Positions 2,922-17,246 of a DNA stretch of 23,191 nucleotides are shown piece by piece. The stretch lies in contig NZ_CALADU010000057.1 in assembly GCF_937890665.1 (NCBI RefSeq), positions 1 through 23,191 on the forward strand, read 5' to 3'. The notes beneath the pieces were generated by a model, which saw nothing but the letters and a program-made list of their open reading frames with translations, ran no database searches and was not told the origin of the DNA. The DNA comes from an uncultured Subdoligranulum sp. Lineage in GTDB: Bacteria; Bacillota_A; Clostridia; Oscillospirales; Ruminococcaceae. Made by a program: the position numbers and the translations under genes. Every line of letters starts with the position of its first letter. The first letter of the stretch is position 1.

Positions 2922-3188
2922 TCATGGTTCTTCCAACAGACCGTTGGCACGCAGCTGTGCCAGCAGTGCGTCCACATCCGCCTCTGCCTGCGGCCGCTCC
3001 ACCGCGTACTCTGCCAGCAGACTGTCTATCAGCGCCTGCCGGGTGGTGCCGCCTTGCAGCAGCCGGAACAGAAAATCAGCCGTTTCGTTGTTGCGGATCA
3101 TGCCGTTGCACTGGGCAGCGGCACCGGTGGCCACCGCCAGATACTGTCCTGCCAGTTGGTGCAGGGTCCAACCGTCTTTGAGTTTCAT
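2922..3188 (-). CDS. PqqD-family peptide-binding chaperone (RRE domain)
   Basis: An 88-residue protein with the layout of stand-alone PqqD/RiPP recognition elements. It has a short beta-rich start (MKLKDGWTLHQLAG), the typical middle CNGMIRNNETADFLFRLLQ, and a C-terminal helical part ending LLAQLRANGLLEEP. Known members bind leader peptides and present them to modifying enzymes. GGAGG lies six bases before ATG at 3188. It follows the precursor-like peptide, with a terminator between them, and precedes the ABC exporter, as in RiPP clusters. The presumed partner is the peptide at 3299-3481, whose N-terminus resembles RRE-bound leaders. Which enzyme it serves is unknown, since no modifying enzyme is encoded in this operon. 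The radical SAM protein at 12736 is a candidate. Confidence 0.92.
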   Translation of the reverse strand: MKLKDGWTLHQLAGQYLAVATGAAAQCNGMIRNNETADFLFRLLQGGTTRQALIDSLLAEYAVERPQAEADVDALLAQLRANGLLEEP

Positions 3189-3202
3189 GGAGTACCTCCG
3201 TA

Positions 3203-3237
3203 ACCAAAAAAATAGCAGGCGGTCCCCCGCCTGCCTA
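3203..3237 (-). terminator. Terminator between precursor peptide gene and pqqD
   Basis: Read leftward, an 8-bp GC-only stem (3234-3227 with 3222-3215, GCAGGCGG/CCGCCTGC) with a 4-nt loop is followed by TATTTTTTT. It lies after the precursor stop and just before the pqqD start. It should end most transcripts after the peptide gene and let a fraction read on, giving an excess of peptide over processing proteins, a common RiPP arrangement. Confidence 0.85.
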
Positions 3238-3298
3238 ATCGCCGGCCCGGCGGCCTCGGCCTAACGGGCCGACGGCACGCCGCGCAGACGGCTCGGTC

Positions 3299-3481
3299 TT
3301 ACTTCTTGTGGTGGCCGCCGTTACCGGGCTTGTCGGGGAACCAATGGCCGTTGCCATTGCCGTTGCCGTTGTTGTTCCAACCGTCGCCGCCCGACTCGCT
3401 TCCGCTGGTGGTAATGATGTCGTCGTTACCAAAGACGATCAGCTCGCTGACCGGCTTTTGATAGGGTTTCCGATTTTCCAT
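3299..3481 (-). CDS. 60-residue RiPP-precursor-like peptide
   Basis: The start is ATG at 3481 with a perfect AAGGAGGAG seven bases upstream. The longer frame back to 3604 has no such site and would cover the riboswitch and terminator. The N-terminal half (MENRKPYQKPVSELIVF) carries a YxxP motif and a hydrophobic stretch like RRE-bound leaders, then NDDIITTSG. The C-terminal half is a low-complexity core rich in Gly, Asn and His, with two Trp and one Phe but no Cys, ending HHKK. Lack of Cys argues against thioether, lanthionine or disulfide products. An (Asn-Gly)4 run is encoded by a hexanucleotide repeat. It is the first gene of an operon with PqqD and an exporter. The lasso leader motif is similar, but no lasso cyclase or transglutaminase-like protease is present. 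The product is unknown. It could also be an unmodified surface peptide. Confidence 0.8.
   Translation of the reverse strand: MENRKPYQKPVSELIVFGNDDIITTSGSESGGDGWNNNGNGNGNGHWFPDKPGNGGHHKK
3347..3370. repeat. Hexanucleotide tandem repeat in the peptide core
   Basis: Four near-identical units (GCCGTT, GCCATT, GCCGTT, GCCGTT on the + strand) encode Asn-Gly four times in the core of the peptide. In-frame slippage would lengthen or shorten the core by two residues per unit. Confidence 0.75.
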
Positions 3482-3525
3482 TTGTTTGCTCCTCCTTGCG
3501 CATTTCAACGGCGTTATCCCCCGAT

Positions 3526-3572
3526 AAAACAAAAAGCCGCAACAAACCTCCGCTTGGGGGGTTGGTTGCAGC
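3526..3572 (-). terminator. Intrinsic terminator in the leader of the peptide operon
   Basis: Read leftward, a 13-bp stem with one mismatch (3572-3560 with 3548-3536, GCTGCAACCAACC against GGTTTGTTGCGGC) and an 11-nt loop is followed by TTTTTGTTTT. It lies between the promoter and the first gene, so it must be conditional. Its 5' arm overlaps the 3' strand of the proposed riboswitch helix P1. Confidence 0.8.
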
Positions 3573-3643
3573 CAGTCAATCCTACGACAACGTCGCTTAG
3601 ACACTTATGCTTTCCGTCCTGGCTTTTCAACCAGTTTGGTACA
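3567..3643 (-). promoter_or_regulatory. Candidate cyclic-di-GMP-I (GEMM-I) riboswitch, divergent
   Basis: The leader RNA has the order expected of GEMM-I aptamers. CAAA is followed by a 6-bp hairpin with a GAAA tetraloop (CTGGTT 3634-3629, AGCCAG 3624-3619). Then come GACGGAAAGC (3618-3609; the family has GACGCAAAGC), GTCTAA, a small CGAC/GTCG hairpin, and GGATTGACTGGCTGC (the family has a GACAGC..GGTTGCC-like end). TGTACC (3643-3638) can pair with GGCTGCA (3573-3567) around a bulged C to close the element as P1. At the place of the ligand-contacting G20 of Vc2 I read A, so the ligand could be c-di-GMP or a related dinucleotide such as cGAMP. P1 shares bases with the terminator at 3526-3572, so ligand binding should allow read-through. 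The alignment was done by eye. Confidence 0.55.
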
Positions 3644-3675
3644 TCATTCAATTTTATGCGTAATTGCTCGTATGT

Positions 3676-3705
3676 AGTATACCATGTTTTTCGGCATCCT
3701 GTCAA
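3676..3705 (-). promoter_or_regulatory. Sigma-70-type promoter of the peptide operon
   Basis: A perfect TTGACA (3705-3700) is spaced 18 bp from TATACT (3681-3676). Transcription would begin near 3668 and give a leader of about 190 nt before the peptide start codon, holding the candidate riboswitch and the terminator. Divergent from the rightward promoter about 70 bp away. Confidence 0.8.
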
Positions 3706-3744
3706 TATTATATACACAAATGATTTTTTTGGCCGGAACGAGTC

Positions 3745-3901: not shown

Positions 3902-5329
3902 ATGTGGAGCAAAAAGCCCAAAAAAGCGACGTCCAAACCGGCGGATTCTCAGCCCATTTCCACAACAGAAGATTTATTATCTACCACCGCAGAGCAGTGG
4001 CAGCAGGAGATGGAGACCCCCTTTTTGCAGCGGGTGTTTCAGGTCCTGCACCAGCGTTCTCGGCTGCTGCTGTGCGCTATGGCGGCCGTGGTGCTGGGCA
4101 GTTCGGTTTTTTTCTATTTTCGCAACAACGGCGTGGCCGGTGCGGTCCTCTCGCTGAATTATGAGGAAAGCACACAGGGCCTGACCCCTTCGGGCGGCCG
4201 TTTTTCCCCCAGCGAGATCCGCAGCGAGGAAGTGATGACCCGTGCCATCGAGTACGCCGGTCTGACCGGCACAGTGGACCCGCTGGAATTGTCCCAGCGG
4301 GTGGGGGTGGACAGCTCCTTCAACCGGGACATGCTGAACGTGGACGAGGATGAATACATTGCCACCTCCTACTACATCACCCTGTCGGATGACCCGGAGA
4401 TGGACTTGGCCCCGCAGGAGATGCTCAAGCTGATCTTGAAGGCTTACAAGGATGTGTTTTTTGAAAAATACGCTGACACATCGACAGTTTTCCCCAAAGT
4501 GGAGATCGATTACAGCGGGATGGAATATCTGGACATCGTTTCCTATCTGGATGTGCGCCTTTCCAAGCTGTCGGGTTTTCTCAACGACAAAATCAACGAG
4601 GACCGAGAGTTCACTTCGGCCAGCACCGGGCTGACTTTCAAACAGTTGCTGGAGATGCAAAACAACCTGACCGAGCTGCCCTATGCCCAACTGTCGGCCT
4701 ATGTGTGGGAGCATGGCATCGCCAAAAATGCCGACCTGAGCATCCAGACCTTGGAGTACAAAAACAAGCTGCTGCGCCAGTCCTACGAGGAGTACATGGA
4801 CAAATACCAGATCCGCACCGACACCATCGACGCCTACCAAAATTCCATGATCGATTCGGTGCTGATCCCCACCTACGACAACAACCACGAATACTACATG
4901 TCCCGCACCAAAATCGGCATCGATGATCTGGCCTTGGAAGCGGAGAATTATCTGGAGCAGGCCAAAGGCACGCAGGTTTCCATTGACCGGAATTTGGATA
5001 TGATCGACAAGATCGAGCTGGGTTCCACCGATGCGCAGCGCGCCGCCGCCGACGCCATGATTGAAAGTCTGGACGCGGAGATCGCCGAGCTGGAAGCGCT
5101 GGTCACCCAAGTGAACCGGGAGTACCTCAACGCACAGCCCCACAACTATCTGAGCGTTCAGTTCCTGTACAGCGGCATCGTAGACAAAGTGAACCTAAAG
5201 TTTGGCATTGTGCTGGGCGTGGCCGTAGGCGCCGTTCTGCTGCTGGGGTTCTATCTGGACACCTATCGCGCCCCCCGCAAGCCCCGCCGCAAACCCAGCC
5301 GCAAGGCCAAAACCGCCGCCACGACCTGA
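3902..5329 (+). CDS. Wzz/YveK-like chain-length determinant (polysaccharide co-polymerase), copy 1
   Basis: A 475-residue protein of Wzz topology: a cytoplasmic Ser/Thr/Lys-rich start, a first membrane helix near residues 54-74 (LLLCAMAAVVLGSSVFFYF), a large outer domain rich in charged, probably coiled-coil segments, and a second helix near 430-453 before a very basic tail. Such proteins set polymer length at the membrane with a Wzy polymerase. I chose ATG at 3902 because AAGGAG lies nine bases upstream. The earlier ATG at 3854 has none. It shares GLTPSG and SEIRS blocks with the next protein, so the two are paralogues. No tyrosine-kinase domain or kinase gene is visible. It is the first gene of the rightward operon. 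Confidence 0.85.
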   Translation: MWSKKPKKATSKPADSQPISTTEDLLSTTAEQWQQEMETPFLQRVFQVLHQRSRLLLCAMAAVVLGSSVFFYFRNNGVAGAVLSLNYEESTQGLTPSGGRFSPSEIRSEEVMTRAIEYAGLTGTVDPLELSQRVGVDSSFNRDMLNVDEDEYIATSYYITLSDDPEMDLAPQEMLKLILKAYKDVFFEKYADTSTVFPKVEIDYSGMEYLDIVSYLDVRLSKLSGFLNDKINEDREFTSASTGLTFKQLLEMQNNLTELPYAQLSAYVWEHGIAKNADLSIQTLEYKNKLLRQSYEEYMDKYQIRTDTIDAYQNSMIDSVLIPTYDNNHEYYMSRTKIGIDDLALEAENYLEQAKGTQVSIDRNLDMIDKIELGSTDAQRAAADAMIESLDAEIAELEALVTQVNREYLNAQPHNYLSVQFLYSGIVDKVNLKFGIVLGVAVGAVLLLGFYLDTYRAPRKPRRKPSRKAKTAATT

Positions 5330-5346
5330 GATGAGGAGAGACTGTC

Positions 5347-7146
5347 TTGAAAGAATTTCAGTTGCTGCGCTATCTGAAAAAATACCGCTTTCTGATCGCG
5401 CTGATCATGCTGGCCGGCTGCCTATTTGTCTATCGCTATGCACAGAGCCACCAGACCTACACCGCCGCGGTGACGCTGGAATATGTGAATGAAACGGCCT
5501 CCGAAGGGCTGACACCGGCAGGCACCCGCATCGACACCAGCGAGATTTATAGCGCGTCGGTGGTGACGGCCGCTATTCAGGATCTGGGCATCAGTTCCAG
5601 CGTGGAGTATATCCGTTCGGGCATTCAGGTGACCCCCATCATCCCCGAAGATGAAGAGACCCGCAAGGAAGCCCTGCTGGAGGACGGCGAGGAATACGAA
5701 TATTTCCCCACCCGGTATCTTGTCACCTTTACCAGCGGCAGCGAAACCAGCCTTGGTTTTGCCGAGGACGTGCTCAACAGCGTGATCAACCACTATCTGG
5801 AGGAATACAGCCAGAAGTACGTCAACTATGTGGTGTTCCCCAACAACGCCACCAACGTGTCCACCGCCGCCTACGACTACATCGAGTGCGCCCAACTGCT
5901 GCAAAACAGTTGCGAGGACATTATCGCCTACCTGTACAACCGCGCCGAACTGTACCCGGAATTTCGCAGCGTACAGACCGGCTATTCCTTTGGGGACTTG
6001 GTGGACTCCTACGAGTACATCCGGGACACCCGGCTGCCGGTGCTCTTTGCGCTGATCCTCAACAACCGGATCGTGCAGGATCAGGACGTATTGGTCACCC
6101 ATTACACCAACAAACTGACTGCCGCCCAGATCCAGTTGGAAAACTGCAACACCACGCTGGGAAAAACCATCACCTTGATCCAGCAGTTCGGAGATAAAAC
6201 ACTGGAGGATTCCCCCTACTATCTGGAGGACGGCGAAAACAGCCTGATCTTGGGGGATGTGGAGCTGGAGCACGACCAGATCACCAACACCATTACCACC
6301 TACGACAAGCTGATCCGCACCTATGTGGAGCAGCAATCCGAAAAAGCCCAGTTGGAACGCAGCATCGCCCAAAACGAGGAGACCTTGGAAGTGTTTTCCA
6401 GTGCCGAAACGGTGACCGGACCGGGCACGCCGCTGGCCAACCAGATGGACACCGACATCACCGCCCTTTCGCAGGAGATGGACGACCTGTACGAGGTAGC
6501 CCTGCAGACGGTGGATGAATTCAACACCGTCAACAGCCCCGACAACATCGCGGTACGTACCAGCGTGCTGTCCAGCACCTCGGTGAGTGTTGCGCTGTAT
6601 ATGGGTCTGGCTCTCATCGCTTCGCTGATTTTGGCCAGTCTGCTGGCTGTATTTCTGGGCCGTACCGGGGACTTTGTGGAGTATTTCCTCTACATCGACC
6701 CCAAAACCGACCTGCCCAACCGTACCCAGTGCGACCTGCAGTTCAACAAATACAGCGCCGGTGTGCTGGCGGAATCTTTCACCTGCGTCTTTTTGCAGTT
6801 CCGCTTTGACGCGGTACGTCACAGCGGTCATGACCGGGAAACCGGCGACGCAGCCCTGAAAAAATTGGGCCGGATCTTGGGGCAGATCTTCAGTCCCGAA
6901 GGATTTGTGGGCTACAACAACAGCGGCCAGTTCATTGCCCTGCTGCCCCACTGCACCCCCGAAAAGGCCGATGCCCTGCTGGAGCGCGTCCACTCGGAGG
7001 TAGACTACGTCAACAACACCGAGGATGCCGGCATTGTGGTGGACTGCGGCGCCGCTACCTCCACCCAAGACAAAATCTACGAGATTCGCGACCTGCTGCA
7101 TCTGTCCATCGATCGAGCCCGCAAGAAGGAGGCCGCCCATGGCTGA
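5347..7146 (+). CDS. Wzz-like chain-length protein fused to a degenerate GGDEF domain
   Basis: 599 residues. A membrane helix at about 15-33 is followed by an outer domain with the GLTPAG and SEIYS blocks shared with copy 1, then a second helix near 412-437. The cytoplasmic tail from about 450 has GGDEF-family landmarks: DPKTDLPNR (family D.LT.LPNR), GHDRETGDAALKKL (family GH..GD..L), and a beta-hairpin that reads YNNSGQFIALLP where active enzymes read GGDEF. The catalytic Gly-Gly-Asp-Glu residues are gone, and I see no RxxD inhibitory site, so cyclase activity is unlikely. Binding a nucleotide or partner is possible. The start is TTG at 5347 with GAGGAGA seven bases upstream. It lies 17 nt after copy 1 and overlaps the next gene by 8 nt. 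This suggests polymer assembly is tuned by a cytoplasmic signal. Confidence 0.82.
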   Translation: MKEFQLLRYLKKYRFLIALIMLAGCLFVYRYAQSHQTYTAAVTLEYVNETASEGLTPAGTRIDTSEIYSASVVTAAIQDLGISSSVEYIRSGIQVTPIIPEDEETRKEALLEDGEEYEYFPTRYLVTFTSGSETSLGFAEDVLNSVINHYLEEYSQKYVNYVVFPNNATNVSTAAYDYIECAQLLQNSCEDIIAYLYNRAELYPEFRSVQTGYSFGDLVDSYEYIRDTRLPVLFALILNNRIVQDQDVLVTHYTNKLTAAQIQLENCNTTLGKTITLIQQFGDKTLEDSPYYLEDGENSLILGDVELEHDQITNTITTYDKLIRTYVEQQSEKAQLERSIAQNEETLEVFSSAETVTGPGTPLANQMDTDITALSQEMDDLYEVALQTVDEFNTVNSPDNIAVRTSVLSSTSVSVALYMGLALIASLILASLLAVFLGRTGDFVEYFLYIDPKTDLPNRTQCDLQFNKYSAGVLAESFTCVFLQFRFDAVRHSGHDRETGDAALKKLGRILGQIFSPEGFVGYNNSGQFIALLPHCTPEKADALLERVHSEVDYVNNTEDAGIVVDCGAATSTQDKIYEIRDLLHLSIDRARKKEAAHG

Positions 7147-8014
7147 GTTCCATAAAATCCCCCCCCGCCGCACCCCATTTTACTGGTGTGTCGTGGTTCT
7201 GGTGGTGGTCCTGTTTTTGCTGTCGGTAACGGCCGCACTGCACTACGGCTTTGCCAATGACCGGTTGGATTTAACCTTCTATCAGTATCAGGTCAAAAGC
7301 GATAAGGTGGTCAGCAACCTGCGCATCGTACAGCTTTCCGACCTGCACTGTGCTTCCTTTGGCGACGACAACGCCGATCTGGTGGCGGAAGTAAACCGTC
7401 TGTCCCCGGATCTCATCGCCATTACCGGCGATATGATCCTGCGCCAGCAGCCCACCAACACCCAAGGGGTACTGGACCTGTGCCGGCAGCTTGTGGAGAT
7501 CGCCCCCGTCTACTACGGGTTGGGCAACCACGAGTATGCGGTCCTTTTGTCTACCGACAGTACCTTGACCGATGACCTGACCGCACTGGGTGTTCATGTG
7601 GTGAACTTGGATTATGAGATCGTCACCATTGGGGAAAACACCGTGGCCATCGGCGGTATGGCGCTGATGCCCGATCTGGTGCCCACCTACGCAGAGGATT
7701 TTCTGACCCGGATGAGCGGGGAGGACTGCTTCAAGATCTTGTTAAGCCACTACCCCGATGTGTTTGAGAGCGCCATGGACGACTACTCGTTGGATCTGGC
7801 CTTGTGCGGCCATGTACACGGCGGGGTCATCCGCCTGCCGGGACTGGGCCCTTTGTATGAGTCCAACCAAGGGTTCTTCCCCACTTGGGCCGAGGGGCAG
7901 CACGACGTCAATGGCTGCAATGTCATCATCAGCCGCGGATTGGGACAGTCCAACTGGGTGCCCCGGTTCAACAACCCGCCGGAACTGGTGGTCGTTGACA
8001 TAGATTGCTACTAA
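7139..8014 (+). CDS. Membrane-anchored metallophosphoesterase (calcineurin-like)
   Basis: 291 residues. A basic N-terminus is followed by one membrane helix at about 15-35, then a calcineurin-like domain with all metal-binding motifs: QLSDLH (D68, H70), TGD (97-98), GLGNHE (GNH at 129-131), LLSHYP and CGHVHGG. By the positive-inside rule the catalytic domain would face outside. Relatives (YkuE/YaeI type) cleave phosphodiesters or lipid-linked phosphates. The start is ATG at 7139 with AAGGAGG six bases upstream, overlapping the previous gene by 8 nt, so translation is coupled. Its place between chain-length and polymerase genes suggests a substrate in the polymer pathway, such as a lipid-linked intermediate or a phosphodiester in the glycan. 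The exact substrate cannot be read from the sequence. Confidence 0.88.
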   Translation: MAEFHKIPPRRTPFYWCVVVLVVVLFLLSVTAALHYGFANDRLDLTFYQYQVKSDKVVSNLRIVQLSDLHCASFGDDNADLVAEVNRLSPDLIAITGDMILRQQPTNTQGVLDLCRQLVEIAPVYYGLGNHEYAVLLSTDSTLTDDLTALGVHVVNLDYEIVTIGENTVAIGGMALMPDLVPTYAEDFLTRMSGEDCFKILLSHYPDVFESAMDDYSLDLALCGHVHGGVIRLPGLGPLYESNQGFFPTWAEGQHDVNGCNVIISRGLGQSNWVPRFNNPPELVVVDIDCY

Positions 8015-8036: not shown

Positions 8037-9317
8037 ATGAACATCTTGGTGGACTGGGGGCGCCGGAACTGGCGCACCGCCCTGTTTTTGGTGCTGTCGT
8101 TGGCGGCCAACCTGTGTGCCTGTTACTACTTCAACGTAGGCATCAAATACGGCGTAGCCTGCCTGATGATGGCTTGGGCTGTGGCGGAATTTGCCGTCAA
8201 ACCGGATTTTGCCAAAGCCCGCCAGATGCTGCGGTTCTTTCTGCTGTTTTATTTTCCCTTCCTGATGTTCTGGAGCTGGTCGCTGGTTCTGTGGATCATG
8301 CAGCTCCAAGACCGGGACTACATTGTTCGCGGTTCTTTGAACACCATCTACATGTTTACCATCATCGGGTATTTTCTCAGCGCCTACTACCTGTTTGGCG
8401 GCCGCTCGATTTACCTGAATTTTTACACCATGTGCGCAGCCAACACCGTCAAGCTGCTGCAGGTCTGTTTGGCTTACAGCTCGGGACAGGTCTTTTCGGA
8501 GTATTTCGCGCTGCTGCGCACCTTCACCGGGGAAACCGGTGACGCCATCCACGCCATGGAGCTCCACGATATGGTGTTTGGATTTGGTCCTTACATCGTC
8601 TTTTTCTTGCTATACCGCAAAAAAGGCCGCTTACAGTTGGGTCACCTGCTGCTGGCTTGTTTCTTCTTCACACTGGCGCTTAAACGAATCGCCGTGCCGG
8701 GGGTCATTCTCGGTGCATTGGTGGGCGGGATCTATCTGCGTCTGCCTGACCGGTTCAAAACCTTGTTTGCCCGGCTGGTGGGTTATACCGCCATCGTGGG
8801 GGTGTTTCTCTACATCTGGGGCATCCGGTCCGGCGTCTACTTTCAGTTGGCGGACGCCCTGCACATCGACCTGATGAGCCGGGATTTTCTGTTCACCTAC
8901 TACGAGGATCTCTACGACTTTTCCCCCACCTATCTGGGGCAGGGCATCCGGTTCATCTACGAGTACGGGCAAAACACCACCACGCAGGTGGGTGCCGTAC
9001 ACTGTGTGTTTCTGGAATTTCTCATCGAAACCGGGTTCTGGTGTTGGACCATCTGGCTGTTCTACGAAATGCGCTTCCGCATCCATCGGGTAGCCAAGCG
9101 GTTCGGGCTGCGGTCCGCCGCCTTTCTGCTGGCGGCCACGGTCTATATGTGGACCACCTTCATGACCGACAACACCAGCTTTTATTGGCCCCCCAACGTG
9201 GCCTATATGCACCTGACGGTGTTCTGGATCGACCTTTCGGTACGGCAGGCCCAGTGCGGCACCGCGTCTGCCGCACTGCCCCGCCGCCGGGGTTTGTTGG
9301 CGCGGGTCACCTTTTGA
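8037..9317 (+). CDS. Wzy-like O-antigen polymerase/ligase family membrane protein
   Basis: 426 residues with about ten hydrophobic helices and a large loop (about residues 275-325) carrying the block GAVHCVFLEFLIETGF, which resembles the H-N-x-x-L-x-x-x-x-E-x-G region of Wzy/WaaL proteins. Such enzymes join undecaprenyl-linked repeat units outside the membrane, or ligate polymer to an acceptor. It follows two Wzz-like genes, its usual functional partners. AAAGGGAG lies before ATG at 8037. The call rests on topology, the loop block and context. Primary sequence in this family is poorly conserved, so polymerase and ligase roles cannot be separated. Confidence 0.72.
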   Translation: MNILVDWGRRNWRTALFLVLSLAANLCACYYFNVGIKYGVACLMMAWAVAEFAVKPDFAKARQMLRFFLLFYFPFLMFWSWSLVLWIMQLQDRDYIVRGSLNTIYMFTIIGYFLSAYYLFGGRSIYLNFYTMCAANTVKLLQVCLAYSSGQVFSEYFALLRTFTGETGDAIHAMELHDMVFGFGPYIVFFLLYRKKGRLQLGHLLLACFFFTLALKRIAVPGVILGALVGGIYLRLPDRFKTLFARLVGYTAIVGVFLYIWGIRSGVYFQLADALHIDLMSRDFLFTYYEDLYDFSPTYLGQGIRFIYEYGQNTTTQVGAVHCVFLEFLIETGFWCWTIWLFYEMRFRIHRVAKRFGLRSAAFLLAATVYMWTTFMTDNTSFYWPPNVAYMHLTVFWIDLSVRQAQCGTASAALPRRRGLLARVTF

Positions 9318-9351: not shown

Positions 9352-10326
9352 ATGGGCCGCCGGGCGGTAATCTCGGTCCTAGTACCGGTCTACAATCTGG
9401 AAAATCGGATCGAGGCCTGTCTGGCAGCGCTGCAAGCCAGCCGTTTTCCCGACTTTGAGGTGCTCTGTTTGGATGACGGCAGCACCGACGCCACCCCCGC
9501 CTTGCTGGACGCGGCAGCCGCCCGCGATCCGCGGTTTCGGGTCTTTCATCTGCCCCACCGCGGGGTTTCGGCAGCGAGGAATTTTGGGCTGGACCACGCC
9601 GTGGGGGATTACCTAACCTTTGTGGACGGCGACGACCAACTGCACTGCTGCTTTCTGGGAGCCCTATTGGACGCTGCCCGCCGCACCGGCGCCGCCATGA
9701 CGATCGCCCGGCATCTGGAGGGGACAGACCCCGGGCCGGGGTCCCTCTGTCAACCGGGGTTTCGTTTCCTCGCCCCACAGGAACTTTTGCGTGACATCGA
9801 AAAAATCTATGTGCATGGCAAACTCTACACCCGCCGGGCGGTGGCAAGCTGCCGCTTTGCTGCGGGGCTTGCCTACGGCGAGGATGTGGTGTTTGTACTG
9901 GACGTGCTGGCGGGGGTCTGTCAACGGGGCGAAGGATTGGCTTACACCGATACACCGCTCTATTTCTATACCCCGCGTTCCGATTCAGCCTCCCATACGG
10001 CCCCGCCCGAGGCACGGCCCGCACTGCTGAGCGTCCTGCGGGACCGGGCAGCGGCAGCCCCCACCCCGGCGCTGCGCCGCCTATATCTGGAAGAGTGCTG
10101 CAAATACGCCGGTCGGTTCGCCTTGCAGTTGCGGCACCAAAAGCCGCTGCGCCGCCGCTGTCTGCAAGCGCTGGGCACTTCGGCTGCCGAACTTCGGCAA
10201 CTGCCGGGACAAACGCACCGGACATGGCTTCGCTTTGCGGCAGAATGCCTTTTGGTCCGGGTCCCACCGCTGCACCGGCTGGGGCAATGGCTGCGGGATG
10301 CCTGCAAAACGCAGGATGGATTGTGA
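9352..10326 (+). CDS. Family 2 glycosyltransferase
   Basis: 324 residues with a classic GT-A fold start: ISVLVPVYNLENRIEACLAAL, then EVLCLDDGSTDAT (D41, D42), SAARNFGLDHAVGDYLTF and VDGDDQ (residues 91-96), the DxD-like metal and nucleotide-sugar site. No membrane helix is visible. It would transfer one sugar from an NDP-sugar to the growing lipid-linked unit at the inner membrane face. The C-terminal third is Arg-rich and not recognisable. GGGAGGG lies before ATG at 9352. Sugar and linkage cannot be predicted. Confidence 0.93.
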   Translation: MGRRAVISVLVPVYNLENRIEACLAALQASRFPDFEVLCLDDGSTDATPALLDAAAARDPRFRVFHLPHRGVSAARNFGLDHAVGDYLTFVDGDDQLHCCFLGALLDAARRTGAAMTIARHLEGTDPGPGSLCQPGFRFLAPQELLRDIEKIYVHGKLYTRRAVASCRFAAGLAYGEDVVFVLDVLAGVCQRGEGLAYTDTPLYFYTPRSDSASHTAPPEARPALLSVLRDRAAAAPTPALRRLYLEECCKYAGRFALQLRHQKPLRRRCLQALGTSAAELRQLPGQTHRTWLRFAAECLLVRVPPLHRLGQWLRDACKTQDGL

Positions 10327-10347
10327 AAAACACGAGGAGGGATGAAG

Positions 10348-11475
10348 ATGCGAATCGCCATGTTAGGGCACAAGCGGGTGCCCTCCCGCGAGGGCGGGAT
10401 CGAAGTGGCCGTGGAAGAACTGGGTGCGCGGATGACAGCCCTTGGCCACAGCGTCACGTTGTACAATCGGGCCGGGCACCATGTGAGCGGTAAGCATCTG
10501 GACCAAGCCCGGCGCAAAGAATACCGCGGCATGCAGCTTCGTTATGTGCCCACCCTCGACCGCAAGGGCTTTGCCGCCCTTTCCTCCGCCTTTTTCTCGG
10601 CCTTCTGCGCCGCGTTTGGCCCATATGACATCGTACATATTCACGCCGAGGGGCCGGCCATCATGGCGTGGCTGCCCCGGCTGACCGGCAAAGGAGTGGT
10701 GGTAACCATCCACGGGCTGGACCATCGCCGTGCCAAATGGGGCTTTTTTGGCCGCACGGCCATCCTGCTGGGGGAACGTTCCGCCGTCTTATTTGCCCAC
10801 GAGATCATCGTATTGAGCGAGAACGCCCGCCGGTATTTCGAGGAAACCTATCACCGCACCACCGTACTGCTTCACAACGGGGTCAACCGTCCCGAGCCGC
10901 GCCCTGCCGAGCTGATCCGCAGCCAATACGGCCTGACGCCGGGCAGCTACCTGCTCTATCTGGGCCGCCTTGTACCGGAAAAAGGGCTGGACTTGCTGGT
11001 GCGGGCCTACCAAGCACTGCACACCGACAAAACATTGGTCATCGCCGGCGGAGCCTCGGACAGCGGCGCCTACATGGCGCAGCTCCAGACCTTGGCCGCC
11101 GGGGACCCCCGCATCCTCTTCACCGGTTTTGTGCAGGGGCCGCTGTTGGAGGAACTGTACTCCAACGCCTATCTCTACGTACTGCCCAGCCATCTGGAGG
11201 GAATGCCCCTAAGTCTGCTGGAAGCCATGAGCTACGGCAACTGCTGCCTGACCTCCGACATTCAGGAATGCACCCGCGTCATCGGTTCCCATGGGGCCAC
11301 CTTCCGCTGCGGGGATGAAGCAGATCTGCGCCGTGCGTTGCAGCAGCTCTGCGACGACCCGGCTTTGGTGCAGCGCTTCCGGCAGAAAGCCGCCGACCGG
11401 GTTTTGGAACGTTTTTCTTGGGATGATGCCGTCCGGCAAACCCTGCAACTCTATGAGAGGGTACTGCGCGCATGA
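10348..11475 (+). CDS. Family 4 glycosyltransferase (DUF1972-like N-terminus)
   Basis: 375 residues. The N-terminal part (MLGHKRVPSREGGIEVAVEE) resembles the DUF1972 domain of rhamnosyltransferase-like enzymes. The C-terminal GT-B half shows LYLGRLVPEKGLDLLVRAY and the acceptor/donor loop SHLEGMPLSLLEAMSYG with the E-x7-E pattern. I prefer ATG at 10348 over 10342, because GAGGAGG is seven bases from 10348 and only one from 10342. It is followed by a second GT4 gene with a 4-nt ATGA overlap, so the two are translationally coupled. Sugar specificity is unknown. Confidence 0.92.
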   Translation: MRIAMLGHKRVPSREGGIEVAVEELGARMTALGHSVTLYNRAGHHVSGKHLDQARRKEYRGMQLRYVPTLDRKGFAALSSAFFSAFCAAFGPYDIVHIHAEGPAIMAWLPRLTGKGVVVTIHGLDHRRAKWGFFGRTAILLGERSAVLFAHEIIVLSENARRYFEETYHRTTVLLHNGVNRPEPRPAELIRSQYGLTPGSYLLYLGRLVPEKGLDLLVRAYQALHTDKTLVIAGGASDSGAYMAQLQTLAAGDPRILFTGFVQGPLLEELYSNAYLYVLPSHLEGMPLSLLEAMSYGNCCLTSDIQECTRVIGSHGATFRCGDEADLRRALQQLCDDPALVQRFRQKAADRVLERFSWDDAVRQTLQLYERVLRA

Positions 11476-12743
11476 AGGTTCTACTGGTCAACAAATTCCA
11501 CTACCGCAAGGGCGGCAGCGAGACCTACTACTTCACGCTGGCCGAGGCGTTGGCGGCCGCCGGGCATACCGTGATTTTTTTCTCGATGGAAGACCCCCAA
11601 AATCTGCCCTGCCCGCAGGCGGAATATTTTGTTCCCAATGCCTCGGTGGACGGCGGGCTGGCAGGCCGGGTACAGATGCTGCGCCAGATGGTCTATTCCC
11701 GCCCGGCCTACCGCCGGATGGCCGCTTTGCTGCAAGCCGAGCACCCCGATCTGGTGCTCTTGAATCTGGTGCACAAGCACCTGACGCTCTCCATTTTGGA
11801 AGCCATTCGCGCCTACGACCCGGCGCTGCCGGTCTTTTGGACGCTCCACGACCTCATTCCGGCTTGTCCTGCCTACACCATGCGGGATGGGCAAGGCAAA
11901 ATCTGCGAGGCGTGTCTGGCGGGCAGCTTTGTTCCCTGTGTGCAGAACCGCTGTATCCGGGGTTCCCTGCCCATGAGCTTGCTGGCCTATCGGGAAGCCA
12001 CCGTCATCCGCCGCAAAGGCTGGTATGATCTGGTGGACCTTTATCTCTGCCCCAGTGCCTTTTATCGCCGGCTGCTGACCCGCGCCCAATTCACCCATGC
12101 CCCGCTGGTGACGCTGCGCAATCCGCTGCCGTTGGACACCTGCTACACCTTGGCCGGACCGGAGGAAGGATACTTCCTCTATATGGGCCGTCTGTCGGCG
12201 GAAAAAGGCGTTTTGACGCTGCTGCGCGCCGCCATCGACACCCATTGCCCCTTGGTGGTCTGCGGCACTGGTCCGCAGGAAGATGCCTGCCGCCAACTGG
12301 CCGCCGGACAGGACCACATCCAGTTCCGGGGCTTTCAGACCGGGGAGGCCCTGCGCCGTATCGTGCAGGGTTGCCGCTGTGTGGTACTGCCTTCGGAGTG
12401 GTACGAAAACGGGCCTTACAGCGCCGCCGAGGCCATGGCACAGGGCAAACCGCTGATCGTATCGGATCAAGGGGGCCTGCCCGAACTGGTGGAGGACGGC
12501 GTGAACGGTTTTGTCTATCCCATGGCAGAGGGCGCTGCCGCACTGGGGCAGCGGCTGTGCGCCATGCGGGATCTGCCCGCCGACGCCTACGCCGCCCAAT
12601 GCCGCAGCGCACGGGACCGCGCCCGGGCATGGTTTGACCCCCGGACCTATGTGCAGACGCTGGAAGCCCTATATACCGCCATACGCCGTGGGGAATCCCC
12701 CACATCCCTTGTGACCGAAGAAGGAGGTCCCCTGCATGGCTGA
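11472..12743 (+). CDS. Family 4 glycosyltransferase
   Basis: 423 residues. The N-terminal nucleotide-fold half starts KVLLVNKFHYRKGGSETYYF, typical of GT4. A Cys-rich middle (CPAYTMRDGQGKICEACL, then CVQNRC, four or five Cys within about 35 residues) could bind metal and is seen in some capsule GT4 proteins. The C-terminal half has YMGRLSAEKGVLTLLRA, then SEWYENGPYSAAEAMAQGK with the E-x7-E pattern. It overlaps its neighbours at both ends (4 nt and 8 nt). It probably adds a sugar to the same lipid-linked unit as the two upstream transferases. Confidence 0.92.
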   Translation: MKVLLVNKFHYRKGGSETYYFTLAEALAAAGHTVIFFSMEDPQNLPCPQAEYFVPNASVDGGLAGRVQMLRQMVYSRPAYRRMAALLQAEHPDLVLLNLVHKHLTLSILEAIRAYDPALPVFWTLHDLIPACPAYTMRDGQGKICEACLAGSFVPCVQNRCIRGSLPMSLLAYREATVIRRKGWYDLVDLYLCPSAFYRRLLTRAQFTHAPLVTLRNPLPLDTCYTLAGPEEGYFLYMGRLSAEKGVLTLLRAAIDTHCPLVVCGTGPQEDACRQLAAGQDHIQFRGFQTGEALRRIVQGCRCVVLPSEWYENGPYSAAEAMAQGKPLIVSDQGGLPELVEDGVNGFVYPMAEGAAALGQRLCAMRDLPADAYAAQCRSARDRARAWFDPRTYVQTLEALYTAIRRGESPTSLVTEEGGPLHG

Positions 12744-13917
12744 GAAAAAACTCAACGGTACCGTCATTGTGACCTACCGCTGCAACGCCCGGTGCTCGAT
12801 GTGCAATCGCTACAAAGCGCCCTCCCGCCCCGAGGAAGAACTGACGCTGGAAACCATCCGCAAGCTGCCGCGGATGTACTTTACCAACATCACCGGCGGC
12901 GAGCCCTTTATCCGTACCGATCTGCCCGCCATTGTGGAGGAACTGTACAAGAAAAGCGACCGCATCGTTATCTCTACCAACGGTTTTTTCACCGAGCGCA
13001 TCGTGGCCCTCTGCAAGCAGTTCCCGCAGGTGGGCATCCGCATTTCCATTGAAGGTCTGGAGGAGACCAACAACGCCATCCGCGGTTTGGAAAACGGTTT
13101 TCAGCGGGGGTACGAAACCCTGAAGACCCTGCGGGCCATGGGCATGAAGGACGTAGGGTTCGGCATGACCGTGCAGGATTGCAACGCCCCCGATCTGGTG
13201 CCGCTCTATCGGCTGTCTGACCAGATGGGGATGGAGTTTGCTACCGCCTCGCTGCACAACAGCTTCTATTTTGTGGAAGGGCATAACATCATCCACGACC
13301 GCCCCATGGTGGCCCAGCATTTTGAGGATCTGGTCAACGAACTGCTGCGGTCCAACAGCCCGAAAAAATGGTTTCGGGCCTACTTTAACCATGGGCTGAT
13401 CAACTACATCTACGGCCAAAAACGGCTGCTGCCCTGTGACATGAGCTTCGACACCTTCTTCATCGACCCCTACGGCGATGTAATGCCCTGCAACGGCACC
13501 AAGGACAAGGAAGTGATGGGCAACCTGAACACCCAAACTTGGGACGAATTGTGGTCCAACCCCGCTGCGGAAGCGGTGCGCCGCAAGGTGCGCTGCTGTG
13601 ACCGCAACTGCTGGATGATCGGCTCGGTGTCCCCGGCTATGCACAAATATATCTGGAAACCGGCGTGGTGGGTGTTCCGCCACAAGTTCCTGCGGTTTTA
13701 CCGGCGCAAGCCCTATTCCATGTACGAATTGCCCATTGTGCGGGATTACCGCGACGGCAAGGTGACCAAGGCGGAACTGGATGCCTGCTCTACCTGTGAC
13801 CTGCATGCTTCTGTCTGCGACGGCCTCTCGGCGGAGAGCCGGGCCCAGTTGGCGCATCGTTCCGGGGAGGAGATCGTGGCGGAGGACCTGCAGGGGCAAG
13901 GAACGGCCCAATCCTGA
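12736..13917 (+). CDS. Radical SAM protein with SPASM-like C-terminus
   Basis: 393 residues. The [4Fe-4S]-SAM site is CNARCSMC (C16, C20, C23), followed by NITGGEPFIRTDL, the SAM-binding GGE block. Further Cys near residues 234 and 252 (CDMSF... to GDVMPC) and 286-291 (CCDRNC) match a SPASM-like auxiliary-cluster region, with one more group near 350 (CSTCDLHASVC). SPASM enzymes commonly modify ribosomal peptides. Others act on small molecules or sugars. AAGGAGG lies eight bases before ATG at 12736 and the gene overlaps the GT4 gene by 8 nt. It is in the sugar operon but the only obvious peptide-modifying enzyme in the window, so the PqqD-bound peptide at 3299-3481 is a possible substrate. That link is inference. 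Confidence 0.88.
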   Translation: MAEKKLNGTVIVTYRCNARCSMCNRYKAPSRPEEELTLETIRKLPRMYFTNITGGEPFIRTDLPAIVEELYKKSDRIVISTNGFFTERIVALCKQFPQVGIRISIEGLEETNNAIRGLENGFQRGYETLKTLRAMGMKDVGFGMTVQDCNAPDLVPLYRLSDQMGMEFATASLHNSFYFVEGHNIIHDRPMVAQHFEDLVNELLRSNSPKKWFRAYFNHGLINYIYGQKRLLPCDMSFDTFFIDPYGDVMPCNGTKDKEVMGNLNTQTWDELWSNPAAEAVRRKVRCCDRNCWMIGSVSPAMHKYIWKPAWWVFRHKFLRFYRRKPYSMYELPIVRDYRDGKVTKAELDACSTCDLHASVCDGLSAESRAQLAHRSGEEIVAEDLQGQGTAQS

Positions 13918-13947: not shown

Positions 13948-14904
13948 ATGCAATCCATCGCTTTTGTGCTAGCCTATTTCGGGGATTTAAACGCCACGGG
14001 GTATTTTCCGCTGTTTTTGCGAAGCTGCGGGCAGAATCCCACGGTGGATTTTTGGCTCTTTACCGACGACCACACCCCCTACGACTATCCCCACAACGTC
14101 CGGGTCCGCTACCTGACGCTGCCCGAAGTCCGCGCCCGGATCCAAGCGGTCATCCCCTACCCCATCATTTTGCAGGTCCCCATGGATCTGTGCAGTTTTC
14201 AGCCCGCGTTTGGGGAAGTTTTTGCCGCAGAGCTGGCCCCCTACGACTTTTGGGGACATATCGACTGCGACCTGATTTTGGGAAATGTGCGCCATTTTGT
14301 CACCGAGGACATCCTGACCCGGTACGACAAGATCTATTCCCACGGCCATATGACCCTCTACCTCAATACCCCCGCCATGAACGCCCTCTACCGCACCGGC
14401 GAAACCGCACAGGCGCTCTCCCGGTATGCCTTTACCGCCGGGGAGCTTAGCTGCTTTGACGAATGGGGGCGGGGCGGCGGCATCAATGGCCTTTGCCTGC
14501 GGGCCGGGTATCCCCTGTACGATGCCTATGATTTTGACGACATTGACGTGACGCGCCGCGCCTTTTGGCCGGTGCAACTGCGCCGCAACGAACCTTACAA
14601 CGCTATGGCGCACCTCTGCTACGAGAAGAAGGGTGACCAACTGCTGCGCCACTGCCTGCTGTACGGTGCCCTTTATACAGCGCCGGTGCTGTACACCCAT
14701 TTTCAAAAGCGGGCCATGACCTGCCCGCCGGCGCTGTGGCAGGCCGAAGCGTATTTGATCGTGCCGGATGAATTTCTGCCCATCCAGCCGGTGGATGAAG
14801 CCTTTTTGCAGAGGCTGCGTCCCGACGGGCTGCGCTGGTCCTATCTGGTCCGGCGTTACCGGGCCGCCATACTGCGGCGGCTGAAACGATGGGAACGGCG
14901 GTAG
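13948..14904 (+). CDS. DUF6625-like protein, probable glycosyltransferase
   Basis: 318 residues beginning SIAFVLAYFGDLNATGYFPLFL, with FWLFTDD and a clear DxD-type site in FWGHIDCDLILGNVRHF. The order of blocks matches the DUF6625 family often found in Clostridia polysaccharide clusters. It is probably a GT-A-like enzyme using an NDP-sugar. No membrane helix is visible. AAGGAG lies six bases before ATG at 13948. It is placed between a radical SAM and an acyltransferase gene, consistent with late decoration of the repeat unit. The function is not proven in the family as far as I know. Confidence 0.72.
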   Translation: MQSIAFVLAYFGDLNATGYFPLFLRSCGQNPTVDFWLFTDDHTPYDYPHNVRVRYLTLPEVRARIQAVIPYPIILQVPMDLCSFQPAFGEVFAAELAPYDFWGHIDCDLILGNVRHFVTEDILTRYDKIYSHGHMTLYLNTPAMNALYRTGETAQALSRYAFTAGELSCFDEWGRGGGINGLCLRAGYPLYDAYDFDDIDVTRRAFWPVQLRRNEPYNAMAHLCYEKKGDQLLRHCLLYGALYTAPVLYTHFQKRAMTCPPALWQAEAYLIVPDEFLPIQPVDEAFLQRLRPDGLRWSYLVRRYRAAILRRLKRWERR

Positions 14905-14927
14905 CCCCGGGTACCGCAGGAGGTTAT

Positions 14928-15956
14928 ATGCAGACAAAACGGGAAATCTGGATCGACAACAGCAAAAGCGTTGCCTGTATTCTGGTGGTGCTGGGGCATT
15001 TTTTCCAGAGCATGACCAAGGCAAACCTTTTGCCCCAGAGCGCACTGCTGGGCTGGTTCGATGAGGCCATCTACTACTTTCATGTGCCGCTCTTCTTTTT
15101 CTGTTCCGGCTACCTGTACCAGCGCACCGCCTGCGTGGACAGCCCTGCCGCGTGGCGCCGCAATCTTGCCAAAAAAGCGCTGGCACTGGGGGTGCCCTAC
15201 CTAACCTTTTCCTGCCTGACTTGGCTGCTGAAAACCCTCTTTGCCGATGCCGTCAACGATGCCGCCGGAGGATTGCTTGACACCCTGCTGGTACACCCAG
15301 CCTCACCGTATTGGTATCTTTACGCTTTGTTTTTCCTATTCTGTCTGGTCCCCACCTTCCAGACCCGCCGAATGGCCGCCTTCTACACAGCAGCGGCCGT
15401 GGCGCTGAAAGCGGCGGGGCTGTGGTTGTCCTTTCCCCTTCCGGCGTTGACCTACCTGACCGACCACGCCGTATGGTTTGTGCTGGGGATGCTGCTGGCC
15501 CGCCGCTGCCGTCCCGGCTTCGCGCCGCCTGCACGGTATGGGCTGCTCAGTGGCGGGGCTGCCGCCGTCTTTCTGGCCCTGAGCGTGGTGCGATACCAAA
15601 CCGGAATGGGCGGGTCGCTGTGGGCACCGCTGCTCTGCCTGCTGGGCATTGCCATGGTCCTGCTGCCCATGGCCGGCTACTACCACACCCACCCCCAAAA
15701 TCGATTTTGGGGGCTGCTGGCCCGCTATACCCTGCCGATCTATTTGATGCACACCCTCTGTGCCGCACCGCTGCGTGTCCTGTTGAACCGTTTGGGGATT
15801 CATCAGGTCCCCGTGCATCTGCTCGCCGGGCTGTTTTTCAGTTTTGCCGGGCCGATCTTTGCCGCATGGGTGACAGAAAAACTTCGCTGGCCGTTGTTTT
15901 TTCTTTATCCCAACCGGGTATTGGCCCAGCGCCGCGCCACCGCCGCCAAGCGGTGA
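14928..15956 (+). CDS. Acyltransferase family 3 (O-acetyltransferase, fucose-4-O-acetylase-like)
   Basis: 342 residues with about ten membrane helices. The start EIWIDNSKSVACILVVLGHFF carries the conserved Asp-Asn-x-Lys and the His of the VVLGH motif in which acyltransferase-3 proteins place their catalytic residue. Later blocks (FHVPLFFFCSGYL, LYALFFLF, YTLPIYLMHTL) also fit. It would O-acetylate a sugar of the polymer. The ATG at 14928 is chosen because AGGAGG lies just upstream; an earlier ATG at 14889 lies in the previous gene's end and lacks one. A 22-bp perfect palindrome lies inside the gene at 15692-15713. Confidence 0.9.
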   Translation: MQTKREIWIDNSKSVACILVVLGHFFQSMTKANLLPQSALLGWFDEAIYYFHVPLFFFCSGYLYQRTACVDSPAAWRRNLAKKALALGVPYLTFSCLTWLLKTLFADAVNDAAGGLLDTLLVHPASPYWYLYALFFLFCLVPTFQTRRMAAFYTAAAVALKAAGLWLSFPLPALTYLTDHAVWFVLGMLLARRCRPGFAPPARYGLLSGGAAAVFLALSVVRYQTGMGGSLWAPLLCLLGIAMVLLPMAGYYHTHPQNRFWGLLARYTLPIYLMHTLCAAPLRVLLNRLGIHQVPVHLLAGLFFSFAGPIFAAWVTEKLRWPLFFLYPNRVLAQRRATAAKR

Positions 15957-15980
15957 TGCCGGACCAAAAAGGAGTTTGTC

Positions 15981-16727
15981 ATGTTCTGCATCCAGATTGC
16001 CGGGTTGTCCATCGGGATGGACAATCGTTACCCTTATGTGCAGCAGCTCTGCCATGGATACGAAACCGACACCCCGCCGCTTTTTACGGTACACGCCACC
16101 CAACAGGATCTGCTGCGCCAGCAAAACGCCGACCCGCGGTATTCCCTTGCCTACTGTGAGAGCCTTTGCCTTTACCGGGCGCTTTGCCTGCAACTGCCCC
16201 TGTACGACGCCTTTTTGATGCATGCCGCCGTGGTAGCCGTGGATGGCGCCGCCTACGTCTTTTCTGCGCCCAGCGGGGTGGGCAAAACCACCCATCTTCG
16301 CCTCTGGCTGGAGCACTTCGGGGACCGGGCACAGGTCATCAACGGCGACAAACCGGTATTCCGCTTTCAAGGGGAACAGTTGTATGCCTACGGCACCCCC
16401 TGGCAAGGCAAAGAAAATCTGGGGACGAATGCCTGCTGCCCTGTACAAGCGGTGTGCTTTCTGGAGCAAAGTCCCCACAACCAAATTCGGCTTTTGACCT
16501 CGGAAGAGTTGATCCCCCACCTCTTCCCCCAACTGCTGCTGCCCAAAGATCCCACCCTGTTGGCTCGCTTCTGGACGCTGCTGGAGCGGATGGTGACGAC
16601 TCTCCCCTTCTATCTGCTGCAATGCAACCGGGAGCCGGAAGCGATGCAGCTCTCCTACAAGACGATGCGGGGCGCTCCCCCGCCGAAAGGAAACACCTGC
16701 CTGTTTTCTTCCCCGTCCGAGCGATAA
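15981..16727 (+). CDS. HPr-kinase/phosphorylase-like ATPase
   Basis: 248 residues. The P-loop SAPSGVGKTTH (about 95-105), preceded by LMHAAVVAVDGAAYVF and followed by VINGDKPVFRF (121-129), is the typical core of stand-alone HPr-kinase-like proteins. It lacks the long N-terminal domain of true HprK and is too short for it. Relatives occur in RiPP gene sets, where some phosphorylate the precursor peptide, and next to PqqD, S24/S26 peptidase and PF14907 genes. AAGGAG lies six bases before ATG at 15981. This gene and the next peptidase are thus the parts of such a set that sit in the sugar operon. The substrate is unknown; the peptide or a sugar are candidates. Confidence 0.82.
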   Translation: MFCIQIAGLSIGMDNRYPYVQQLCHGYETDTPPLFTVHATQQDLLRQQNADPRYSLAYCESLCLYRALCLQLPLYDAFLMHAAVVAVDGAAYVFSAPSGVGKTTHLRLWLEHFGDRAQVINGDKPVFRFQGEQLYAYGTPWQGKENLGTNACCPVQAVCFLEQSPHNQIRLLTSEELIPHLFPQLLLPKDPTLLARFWTLLERMVTTLPFYLLQCNREPEAMQLSYKTMRGAPPPKGNTCLFSSPSER

Positions 16728-16802
16728 CGGCACGGCGAAACCTGCCGTCCGCTGAAATCCATACAGAGTTTTGGAGCCGGGTTTTCCCGGTATGGTATTG
16801 AG

Positions 16803-17246
16803 ATGACACAGACGATCGAACAAGTACTGACAACCCAAGGGCGCGGCTTTTTTGCCACCGTGGGTGACAGCATGGAGCCGCTGCTGCATAACCGCCAAAG
16901 CACCGTCGTCATCGAGCCGGCCGTACATCCACTGTCCCCCGGCACGGTAGCCCTCTACCGGCGTCCCTCCGGCGAGTATGTGCTGCACCGGATCATCCGG
17001 GTGGAGCGCGATGCGTACCGGATTCGGGGCGACAACCGGCTCCAGCAGGAACGGGTCCCGCAAGAGTGGGTTCTGGGCGTAATGGTGGGGTATTACCCCG
17101 ATGAGCGGGAGCACTATGTTTCCTGTACCGGCGCCCAGTACCGGCAGGACCTGCGTCGGGTCCGCCGTCACCATTGGGCCCTGTGGCTGCGTGCCCTGCC
17201 GGGCCGTATACGGCACAAACTGGCACAACTGCAGCCGCCCCGCTAA
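16803..17246 (+). CDS. S24/S26-type peptidase-like protein, no membrane anchor (Ser/His type)
   Basis: 147 residues. GDSMEPLL (S23) is the signal-peptidase Ser motif, and YVLHRIIRV places His62 where SPase I has Lys, as in the ER/SipW subfamily. RGDN (75-78) matches the conserved GDN box. A Ser23-His62 pair is therefore plausible. No N-terminal membrane helix is present, unlike secretory signal peptidases, so it could act in the cytosol, for example on a leader peptide. The start lies 75 nt after the HPr-kinase-like gene with only a weak ribosome binding site, and a 5-bp GC hairpin (CCGGG-TTTT-CCCGG) is in the gap. It is the last gene before the terminator at 17281. Confidence 0.8.
   Translation: MTQTIEQVLTTQGRGFFATVGDSMEPLLHNRQSTVVIEPAVHPLSPGTVALYRRPSGEYVLHRIIRVERDAYRIRGDNRLQQERVPQEWVLGVMVGYYPDEREHYVSCTGAQYRQDLRRVRRHHWALWLRALPGRIRHKLAQLQPPR

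Follow-up and report, generated by a model that had tools for sequence, protein, structure and literature searches.

Linear polyphosphorylated peptides (LPPs) were first described by Popov et al. in a paper published in May 2026 (PMC13381572). As set out in the main text of that paper, an LPP set consists of an SpI-like protease of the SipW/archaeal type with Ser and His, a discrete RRE (a recognition element for ribosomally synthesized and post-translationally modified peptides, RiPPs), an HprK-like kinase, a nucleoside triphosphate (NTP) transferase and an MsbA-like transporter. Phosphorylation of the core Ser and RRE-dependent cleavage of the leader were demonstrated there, and deletion of LppN caused no change in the heterologous host. 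LPP clusters, like those of the lasso peptide paeninodin, are often located within capsule loci of Bacilli, where their roles are unknown, and a role in biofilms is raised only as speculation (PMC13381572). Here we analyzed a stretch of 23,191 nucleotides from an uncultured Subdoligranulum sp. (assembly GCF_937890665.1, contig NZ_CALADU010000057.1, positions 1 to 23,191 of the forward strand), which in its full length is referred to as the window. It contains the same six core gene kinds as LPP loci (peptide, PqqD, kinase, protease, exporter and PF14907, with which we equate the NTP transferase of the published set), and these are spread over two divergent operons, the second of which encodes a polysaccharide pathway. 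Two modules that are usually separate are thus joined in the window. The shared placing of the two modules, together with a cyclic di-GMP (c-di-GMP) switch, suggests that the peptide works alongside the polymer, either on the cell surface or within the matrix, and we consider it reasonably probable that the locus combines an LPP-type cassette with a surface-polysaccharide operon of the Wzy type and functions in this manner.

The peptide operon lies on the minus strand and, in the order of transcription, comprises a promoter-like site, a riboswitch, a hairpin, the peptide gene, a second hairpin and the genes for PqqD, the ATP-binding cassette (ABC) exporter and the PF14907 transferase. The promoter-like site (TTGACA-18-TATACT, 3676..3705) agrees with the consensus at 11 of 12 positions, the scan having returned 3 sites in the region versus a mean of 1.0 in shuffled sequences, and lies upstream of a c-di-GMP-I riboswitch aptamer (RF01051, 3564..3650), which is located in the leader of the operon and matches the Rfam model over its full length with 52.5 bits versus a gathering score of 35. 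The aptamer is followed by a terminator-like hairpin with a U-rich tract (3535..3573, ViennaRNA fold), which is absent from the output of the simple terminator scan, and by the gene for the putative precursor peptide of 60 amino acids (3299..3481, with its start at 3481 and the end of its stop codon at 3299). A second terminator-like hairpin (3214..3235), recovered by the terminator scan (2 such sites in the region versus 1.3 expected), separates the peptide gene from that of a discrete, LppB-like PqqD/RRE protein (2922..3188; PF05402, E 1.2e-17). This protein also resembles TfuB1 (3.6e-4) and TbiB1 (1.5e-3), and entry 9x8z was not among its matches in the copy of the PDB used. The operon ends with an MsbA-like, LppD-like ABC exporter (1203..2894; PF00664/PF00005), whose best NCBIfam match, MsbA_rel, scores below the cut-off of that model, and an LppN-like nucleotidyltransferase of the family PF14907 (100..1122; E 4.1e-42), a family on which a literature search under that name found no paper. 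All parts named in a first-pass annotation of this DNA are present according to Pfam, NCBIfam and fold matches. Its coordinates (2922..17246) proved too short, since the peptide operon continues to base 100, and the riboswitch at 3650-3564 had not been mentioned; the set, for which it had recognized no named system, corresponds to that of LPPs (PMC13381572).

The remaining two members of the set close the polysaccharide operon on the plus strand. The first, an LppK-like, HprK-like protein (15981..16727), has no match in the Pfam copy used, its relatives carrying the newer model PF27840, and only weak matches in NCBIfam (ScmC, 5e-5; HprK_rel_A, 0.0045). Its AlphaFold2 model (pLDDT 91.9) found HprK/P structures on top (E 1.1e-6), followed by phosphoenolpyruvate carboxykinases, with TM-scores (by query) of 0.28-0.52 among the matches listed, and it is this fold that points to a kinase. 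The second is a putative leader protease of the signal peptidase type without a membrane anchor (LppS-like, 16803..17246), which matches PF00717 (2.3e-4) and an archaeal signal peptidase profile (1.8e-5), in both cases under the cut-off. Motif positions suggest Ser23, His62 and Asp77 as candidate catalytic residues, and the spacing of 39 between Ser23 and His62 equals that between Ser29 and His68 of LppS, the Asp not being alignable (PMC13381572).

A search of 5.8 billion proteins yielded 23 relatives of the window peptide. In all 24 sequences the core motif GWNNNGNGN.NG.W, part of the conserved core GWNNNGNGNGNGHWFPDKPGNGG, is invariant except at the dotted positions, GWNNNGNGNGNG is present in 23 and KPG in 22, and the leader varies around Y..P..E.I.....DIITTSG with the YxxP motif in 21 (Y7 and P10 in the window). 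Since the relatives were collected through shared words, which favors the core, its conservation may be biased; cleaner evidence is therefore provided by residues conserved outside the scan pattern (HWF..KPG.GG) in the peptides of two genomes, G001 (Pseudoflavonifractor phocaeensis, locus L007) and G002 (an uncultured Eubacteriales bin, locus L011). Of 23 core codons, 14 are the same in the window and G001, 6 differ synonymously and 3 non-synonymously; the corresponding numbers are 16, 5 and 2 for the window and G002 and 15, 7 and 1 for G001 and G002. Ser26 of the window peptide is invariant in all 24 sequences, and its distance from the leader Tyr is 19 residues in 23 peptides and 18 in one, compared to 18 in LppA (PMC13381572). 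Phosphorylation inside the core was also considered and dismissed, because 16 of the 24 peptides contain no Ser, Thr or Tyr downstream of the invariant Ser.

The peptide is rare in genomes. The exact core pattern was found at 13 loci in the contigs of 84,980 species, of which only L007 and L011 encode this peptide, the other 11 as well as both viral loci representing longer Gly/Asn-rich proteins or, in L013, a frame of 12 residues. A shorter pattern recovered G001 and G002 only among 20 genomes of the genus and G001 only among 394 genomes of the order. In 300 genomes of the G001 family, the profile of the 24 peptides produced 25 matches in 20 genomes (E <= 0.01, a limit at which about 3 genomes are expected by chance). 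Most of these matches cover the leader part, and for six of the 25 (L024, L029, L032, L036, L038 and L043) a gene for a kinase, PqqD or an S24-like protein is located within 1.5 kb. Several secreted-looking proteins are among the Gly/Asn/Trp-rich proteins of Proteobacteria that share the WNNNGNGNG motif (L003-L005, L008, L010, L012, L014 and L015). They resemble sulfur-globule coat proteins, a likeness that would be in line with a structural function of the peptide core.

Taken together with the described LPP system, these features outline a possible pathway. The first hairpin shares 10 nt of its 5' arm with the 3' end of the aptamer, and this predicted overlap suggests that the riboswitch is an ON switch, in which a rise in c-di-GMP would probably block the terminator and allow expression of the peptide operon. 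The YxxP leader would then be bound by PqqD, as with LppB, and the HprK-like kinase would phosphorylate Ser26, the cognate Ser of LppA having been shown to be phosphorylated (PMC13381572). The unanchored protease is predicted to cut a few residues before Ser26, thus releasing the Gly/Asn/Trp core, and the PF14907 enzyme may place a nucleotide or sugar on the phosphate, in analogy to PsmN in the case of pseudomycoidin (PMC9266682). The exporter, judging from its relatives, would release the peptide, while the families encoded in the plus-strand operon point to an acylated polysaccharide whose chain length would be set by two co-polymerase-like proteins. It is also conceivable, though we regard it as improbable, that the PF14907 enzyme transfers a sugar to the phosphoserine and that the polysaccharide is assembled on this residue or linked to it. 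The constant GNGN-core peptide would then represent a genetically encoded anchor or primer for a matrix glycan, under the control of c-di-GMP. To our knowledge, no phosphate-linked peptide-polysaccharide is known from bacteria, a statement for which no dedicated literature search was made.

The polysaccharide operon begins with a Wzz/Wzc-like co-polymerase (3902..5329), for which none of the 9 members of the family alignment, including the window protein, has a Pfam match. The confidence of its AlphaFold2 model is intermediate (pLDDT 76.8), and all seven Foldseek matches with E <= 0.001 are Wzc co-polymerases with low TM-scores (0.16-0.20, by query), so that the protein is assigned by its fold. 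The relatives P0039 of the HprK-like and P0158 of the Wzz-like protein each have a longest contig of 24,565 bases, possibly one metagenome contig carrying both. The second gene encodes another protein of the co-polymerase type, at the C terminus of which lies a degenerate GGDEF domain (5347..7146; PF00990, E 1.1e-9). Of 15 relatives, 3 lack this domain; in the other 12, which were aligned, as well as in the window protein, sequences such as YNNSGQF or YNGNGSF take the place of the GGDEF signature, and the protein may act as a receptor and not as an enzyme. It is followed by a calcineurin-like phosphoesterase, the true start of which is probably inside the open reading frame (ORF; 7025..8014; PF00149, E 1.4e-11), a membrane protein resembling Wzy and O-antigen ligases (8037..9317; PF04932, 9e-5, below the cut-off), a GT2 glycosyltransferase (9352..10326; PF00535, 8e-31), two GT4 glycosyltransferases (10342..11475, PF00534, 5.4e-26; 11472..12743, PF00534, 3.1e-25), a radical S-adenosylmethionine (SAM)/SPASM enzyme (12736..13917; PF04055, 5.7e-17, and PF13186), a DUF6625 protein (13948..14904; PF20330, 1.6e-72) and an acyltransferase 3 (14889..15956; PF01757, 7.8e-31). 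Among the parts of a Wzy-dependent operon the glycosyltransferases are certain, whereas Wzy is below the cut-off and Wzz is recognized by fold.

The strongest ground for considering the two operons one system is that a set of genes which clusters together elsewhere is spread over both of them in the window, where the genes for kinase and protease close the sugar operon. A related arrangement was found in G001 and G002, which belong to one genus in the genome collection (Pseudoflavonifractor is filed under Oscillospiraceae by NCBI). In both, peptide and exporter genes are divergent from an operon for a sugar transferase (Bac_transf, checked with Pfam in L007 only), PF14907, GT4, both co-polymerases, phosphoesterase, a Wzy-like protein, GT4, the radical SAM enzyme and GT2. 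PF14907 thus belongs to the peptide operon in the window and to the sugar-operon side in G001 and G002. The trio of kinase, PqqD and protease is located on another contig of these genomes, accompanied by a radical SAM gene (identified by Pfam in G001, a weak match in G002) and by the gene for a second peptide, which contains cysteine; the kinases of the trio are 64% (G001) and 59% (G002) and the proteases 60-61% identical to those of the window. This PqqD is the only one above the cut-off in either genome, at a distance from the locus of the peptide with the GNGN core, while the exporter on the sugar side is the only close one per genome (581 bits; next 145 and 129). The two loci within each genome therefore hold complementary parts of one set. 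In all three loci with visible surroundings (window, G001 and G002) the GNGN-core peptide adjoins the same sugar operon, and within these few loci it was not seen without it. The cysteine-core peptides beside the radical SAM genes (L019 and L021) may represent another modified peptide that shares the trio.

In other genomes the two modules were traced separately. A search for PqqD in the family of G001 gave 55 places in 43 of 150 genomes, of which 40 stand-alone places were taken as stretches of 20 kb or less, many ended by contig ends; G001 (analyzed separately), G101 (a frame of 282 amino acids), G079 and 12 places at the weak end, of which several are fused to long proteins, were left out, and 4 of the 40 were not re-detected by the local PqqD profile. 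The kinase was present in 27 of these stretches, the protease in 22, the exporter in 14 and PF14907 in 16; the trio was complete in 19, each from a different genome and in addition to that of G001, and all five genes occurred together in 8. The complete order peptide-kinase-PqqD-protease-exporter-PF14907 was found in L192 and, on the minus strand, in L190. Some trio stretches also carry a radical SAM gene and may belong to other peptide systems. Glycosyltransferases like those of the window were detected in three stretches (L171, L172 and L176), Wzz and Wzy in none of the 40. At least two of the stretches adjoin giant secreted-looking proteins: the LPP-type sets of L190 and L192 have tiny acidic cores and lie directly 3' of genes for such proteins of at least 1767 amino acids (ending at the contig end) and 1214 amino acids, respectively. 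An InlB-like repeat scores above the cut-off in L190, whereas its match in L192 is weak. The second co-polymerase has relatives in 17 of the 394 genomes of the order, and of 16 such Wzz-GGDEF places besides G001, 15 were analyzed (G586:C20 was omitted). All 15 contain a Wzz-like protein as well as GT2 and GT4 glycosyltransferases, and 10 contain a Wzy-like protein.

The placing of the exporter gene next to a polysaccharide operon raises the question of its substrate. The Pfam matches in the window include neither a flippase nor an initiating transferase family (Bac_transf occurs in L007), and a best match to MsbA_rel would also suit a protein that, instead of exporting the peptide, flips a lipid-linked sugar for the polysaccharide operon. 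However, in 11 of 12 cassette genomes tried, which were picked by hand from those with PqqD or trio loci, the genome-wide best match of the window exporter was the exporter of the cassette (the exception being G294; G153 and G188, which have no known cassette, were also included in the search), and none of the 15 relatives of the sugar operon carries one at the threshold used, G323 having a partial ABC match of 108 bits. We thus consider a sugar-flipping role of this exporter to be rather improbable.

A radical SAM/SPASM enzyme in such a setting could also modify the peptide, for instance by cross-linking WNN or HW motifs within the core, which would then be the main modification; cross-links of this kind are known as three-residue cyclophanes. 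In favor of such a function, the enzyme is 84-85% identical between the window and G001/G002, compared to 32-62% for the other shared genes of the locus, and the peptide core is equally conserved. However, orthologs with 76-84% identity occur in 12 of the 394 genomes of the order (no further match was found at E <= 1e-50), and besides G001 they occupy 12 loci in 11 genomes, with 76-83% identity, that contain GT4 (12 of 12) and GT2 (9 of 12) glycosyltransferases and no peptide, PqqD, kinase or protease. Window-type Wzz and Wzy were absent from all 12 loci, whereas PF14907 was found in one (G498) and an ABC protein above the threshold in another (G443). Because its orthologs reside in sugar loci devoid of the peptide machinery, the enzyme is best regarded as a part of sugar loci, as judged from this gene context, and likely has a sugar-modifying role. 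These loci overturn a function as peptide maturase, and the cross-linking explanation is largely refuted and in our view very improbable. The glycosyltransferases adjoining the radical SAM enzyme are far less conserved than the enzyme itself.

With respect to regulation, the riboswitch of the window heads the peptide operon and not the sugar operon. A run of genes on the same strand that leads into a similar sugar operon in G358 is headed by a c-di-GMP-I riboswitch followed by an EAL gene, with a GGDEF gene also at its head (L110, 1930-5312), and in L117 a c-di-GMP-I-GGC riboswitch is located 3' of the sugar genes and 5' of a gene for a secreted-looking protein. The riboswitch scan covered 13 of the 15 sugar loci (L122, L123 and L112 were not included). 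Among the ten papers listed of 581 that combined two of the subjects c-di-GMP riboswitch, precursor peptide and RiPP, none combined all three.

Several of our observations weigh against a common function of peptide and polymer. The joined loci are only three, two of them from one genus, and both modules occur without each other: by the profiles used, 37 of the 40 PqqD stretches (many of which end at contig ends) lack a glycosyltransferase, genes for kinase, protease, PqqD, PF14907 and exporter, at the threshold applied, are all missing from the 15 Wzz-GGDEF loci, and the trio is absent from all 12 radical SAM loci. A c-di-GMP riboswitch was detected in only 2 of the 13 scanned sugar loci, one of which has it elsewhere than at the head of the operon, and was found neither in the peptide loci L007 and L011 nor in nine other cassette stretches scanned. 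Since the trio of G001 and G002 has its own second peptide, its action in trans on the GNGN-core peptide is an assumption, and the protease and Wzy are supported by profile matches below the cut-off. In addition, YxxP has Ala in place of Pro in 3 of the 24 peptides, and the window leader is without the HQ and FET of the published LPP consensus YxxPxVLxHQxIxFETxxS (PMC13381572); therefore we label the cassette LPP-type and do not place it in the published clade of Bacilli.

It could thus be argued that the modules are neighbors only, linked and perhaps co-inherited or co-regulated, with the peptide being an independent secreted product, such as a signal or an antimicrobial, that has no contact with the polymer at any stage. 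The occurrence of each module alone in most loci examined agrees with this explanation, as does the frequent location of LPP and paeninodin clusters in capsule loci mentioned above. On the other hand, it is opposed by the fact that the sugar operon of the window ends with the genes for kinase and protease and that PF14907 is on differing sides in the window and in G001/G002. The nearly constant core also argues against it, although only 23 codons were compared; antimicrobial peptide cores usually diversify, and a constant core points to a fixed partner. We therefore regard mere proximity as a possible but doubtful explanation and favor a peptide that acts with the polymer. The first-pass annotation had proposed that the two operons form one system, a view that gains from the distribution of the set over both of them and from the three loci with the GNGN-core peptide, and loses from the separate occurrence of the modules elsewhere. 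Its suggestion that the kinase, the protease and the radical SAM enzyme are parts usual in PqqD sets holds for the first two. It had also named the halves occurring apart as evidence against a single system, which is the case for most relatives of either half, and had asked whether the peptide tracks with the sugar genes, as it does in the three loci available.

Further searches concerned mobile elements and neighboring genes. PqqD and peptide searches of viral contigs revealed nothing of the cassette, the DNA of peptide and PqqD had no match in plasmids, and among the plasmid matches listed for the exporter all were below 60% identity and none spanned 80% of the protein. Alignments A3 and A4 comprised 9 and 8 of the relatives, respectively. 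In the window, a C-5 cytosine methylase and an adjacent, unassigned ORF of 342 amino acids (18356-21442) possibly represent a restriction-modification pair.

Several known systems share parts with this locus. Lasso peptides of the paeninodin and pseudomycoidin type have PqqD (B1), an HprK-like kinase, a nucleotidyltransferase and an ABC exporter (D) in common with it, whereas their leader motif is WxxP instead of YxxP (PMC9266682, PMC7533575). A lasso peptide was ruled out for the window, as neither a macrolactam synthetase nor a B2 transglutaminase-like protease is among its Pfam matches. Transglut_core3 (lasso B2) was detected in 5 of 20 genomes picked in the same way as above, twice above the cut-off and never in the analyzed stretches, and PF13471 was absent from G001 and G002. 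HprK-like and PqqD-like proteins also go together in the HprK_rel_A/PqqD_rel_X (TIGR04352, TIGR04353) and SynChlorMet ScmC (TIGR04249) systems, but the matches to these models remained below the curated cut-offs (16 of 200, 20 of 35 and 23 of 125 bits, respectively). Exopolysaccharide operons controlled by c-di-GMP are a known kind in Clostridia and share Wzz-like, Wzy-like and glycosyltransferase genes and a riboswitch with the window, where the switch sits on the peptide operon instead. The closest likeness is to LPPs, with which the locus shares, besides the gene set, the YxxP leader and its spacing to the Ser, the protease motif, the lack of lasso cyclase and B2 protease matches and the setting in a polysaccharide locus (PMC13381572). 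New here are the nearly constant core, the invariant Ser near the published LPP phosphosite and the predicted c-di-GMP-I riboswitch with terminator; the main text of that paper mentions neither Clostrid, Oscillospir, riboswitch nor c-di-GMP. Our results also show LPP-like sets in Oscillospiraceae, the family of G001, and the window offers a testable case for the suspected tie of such peptides to surface sugars. In contrast to LPPs, whose C termini are described as highly variable, the core of the window family is nearly constant, the set is split over two operons under a c-di-GMP riboswitch and the relatives are found in Oscillospiraceae (PMC13381572), so that the locus probably represents an LPP-type variant coupled to a c-di-GMP-linked surface polysaccharide.

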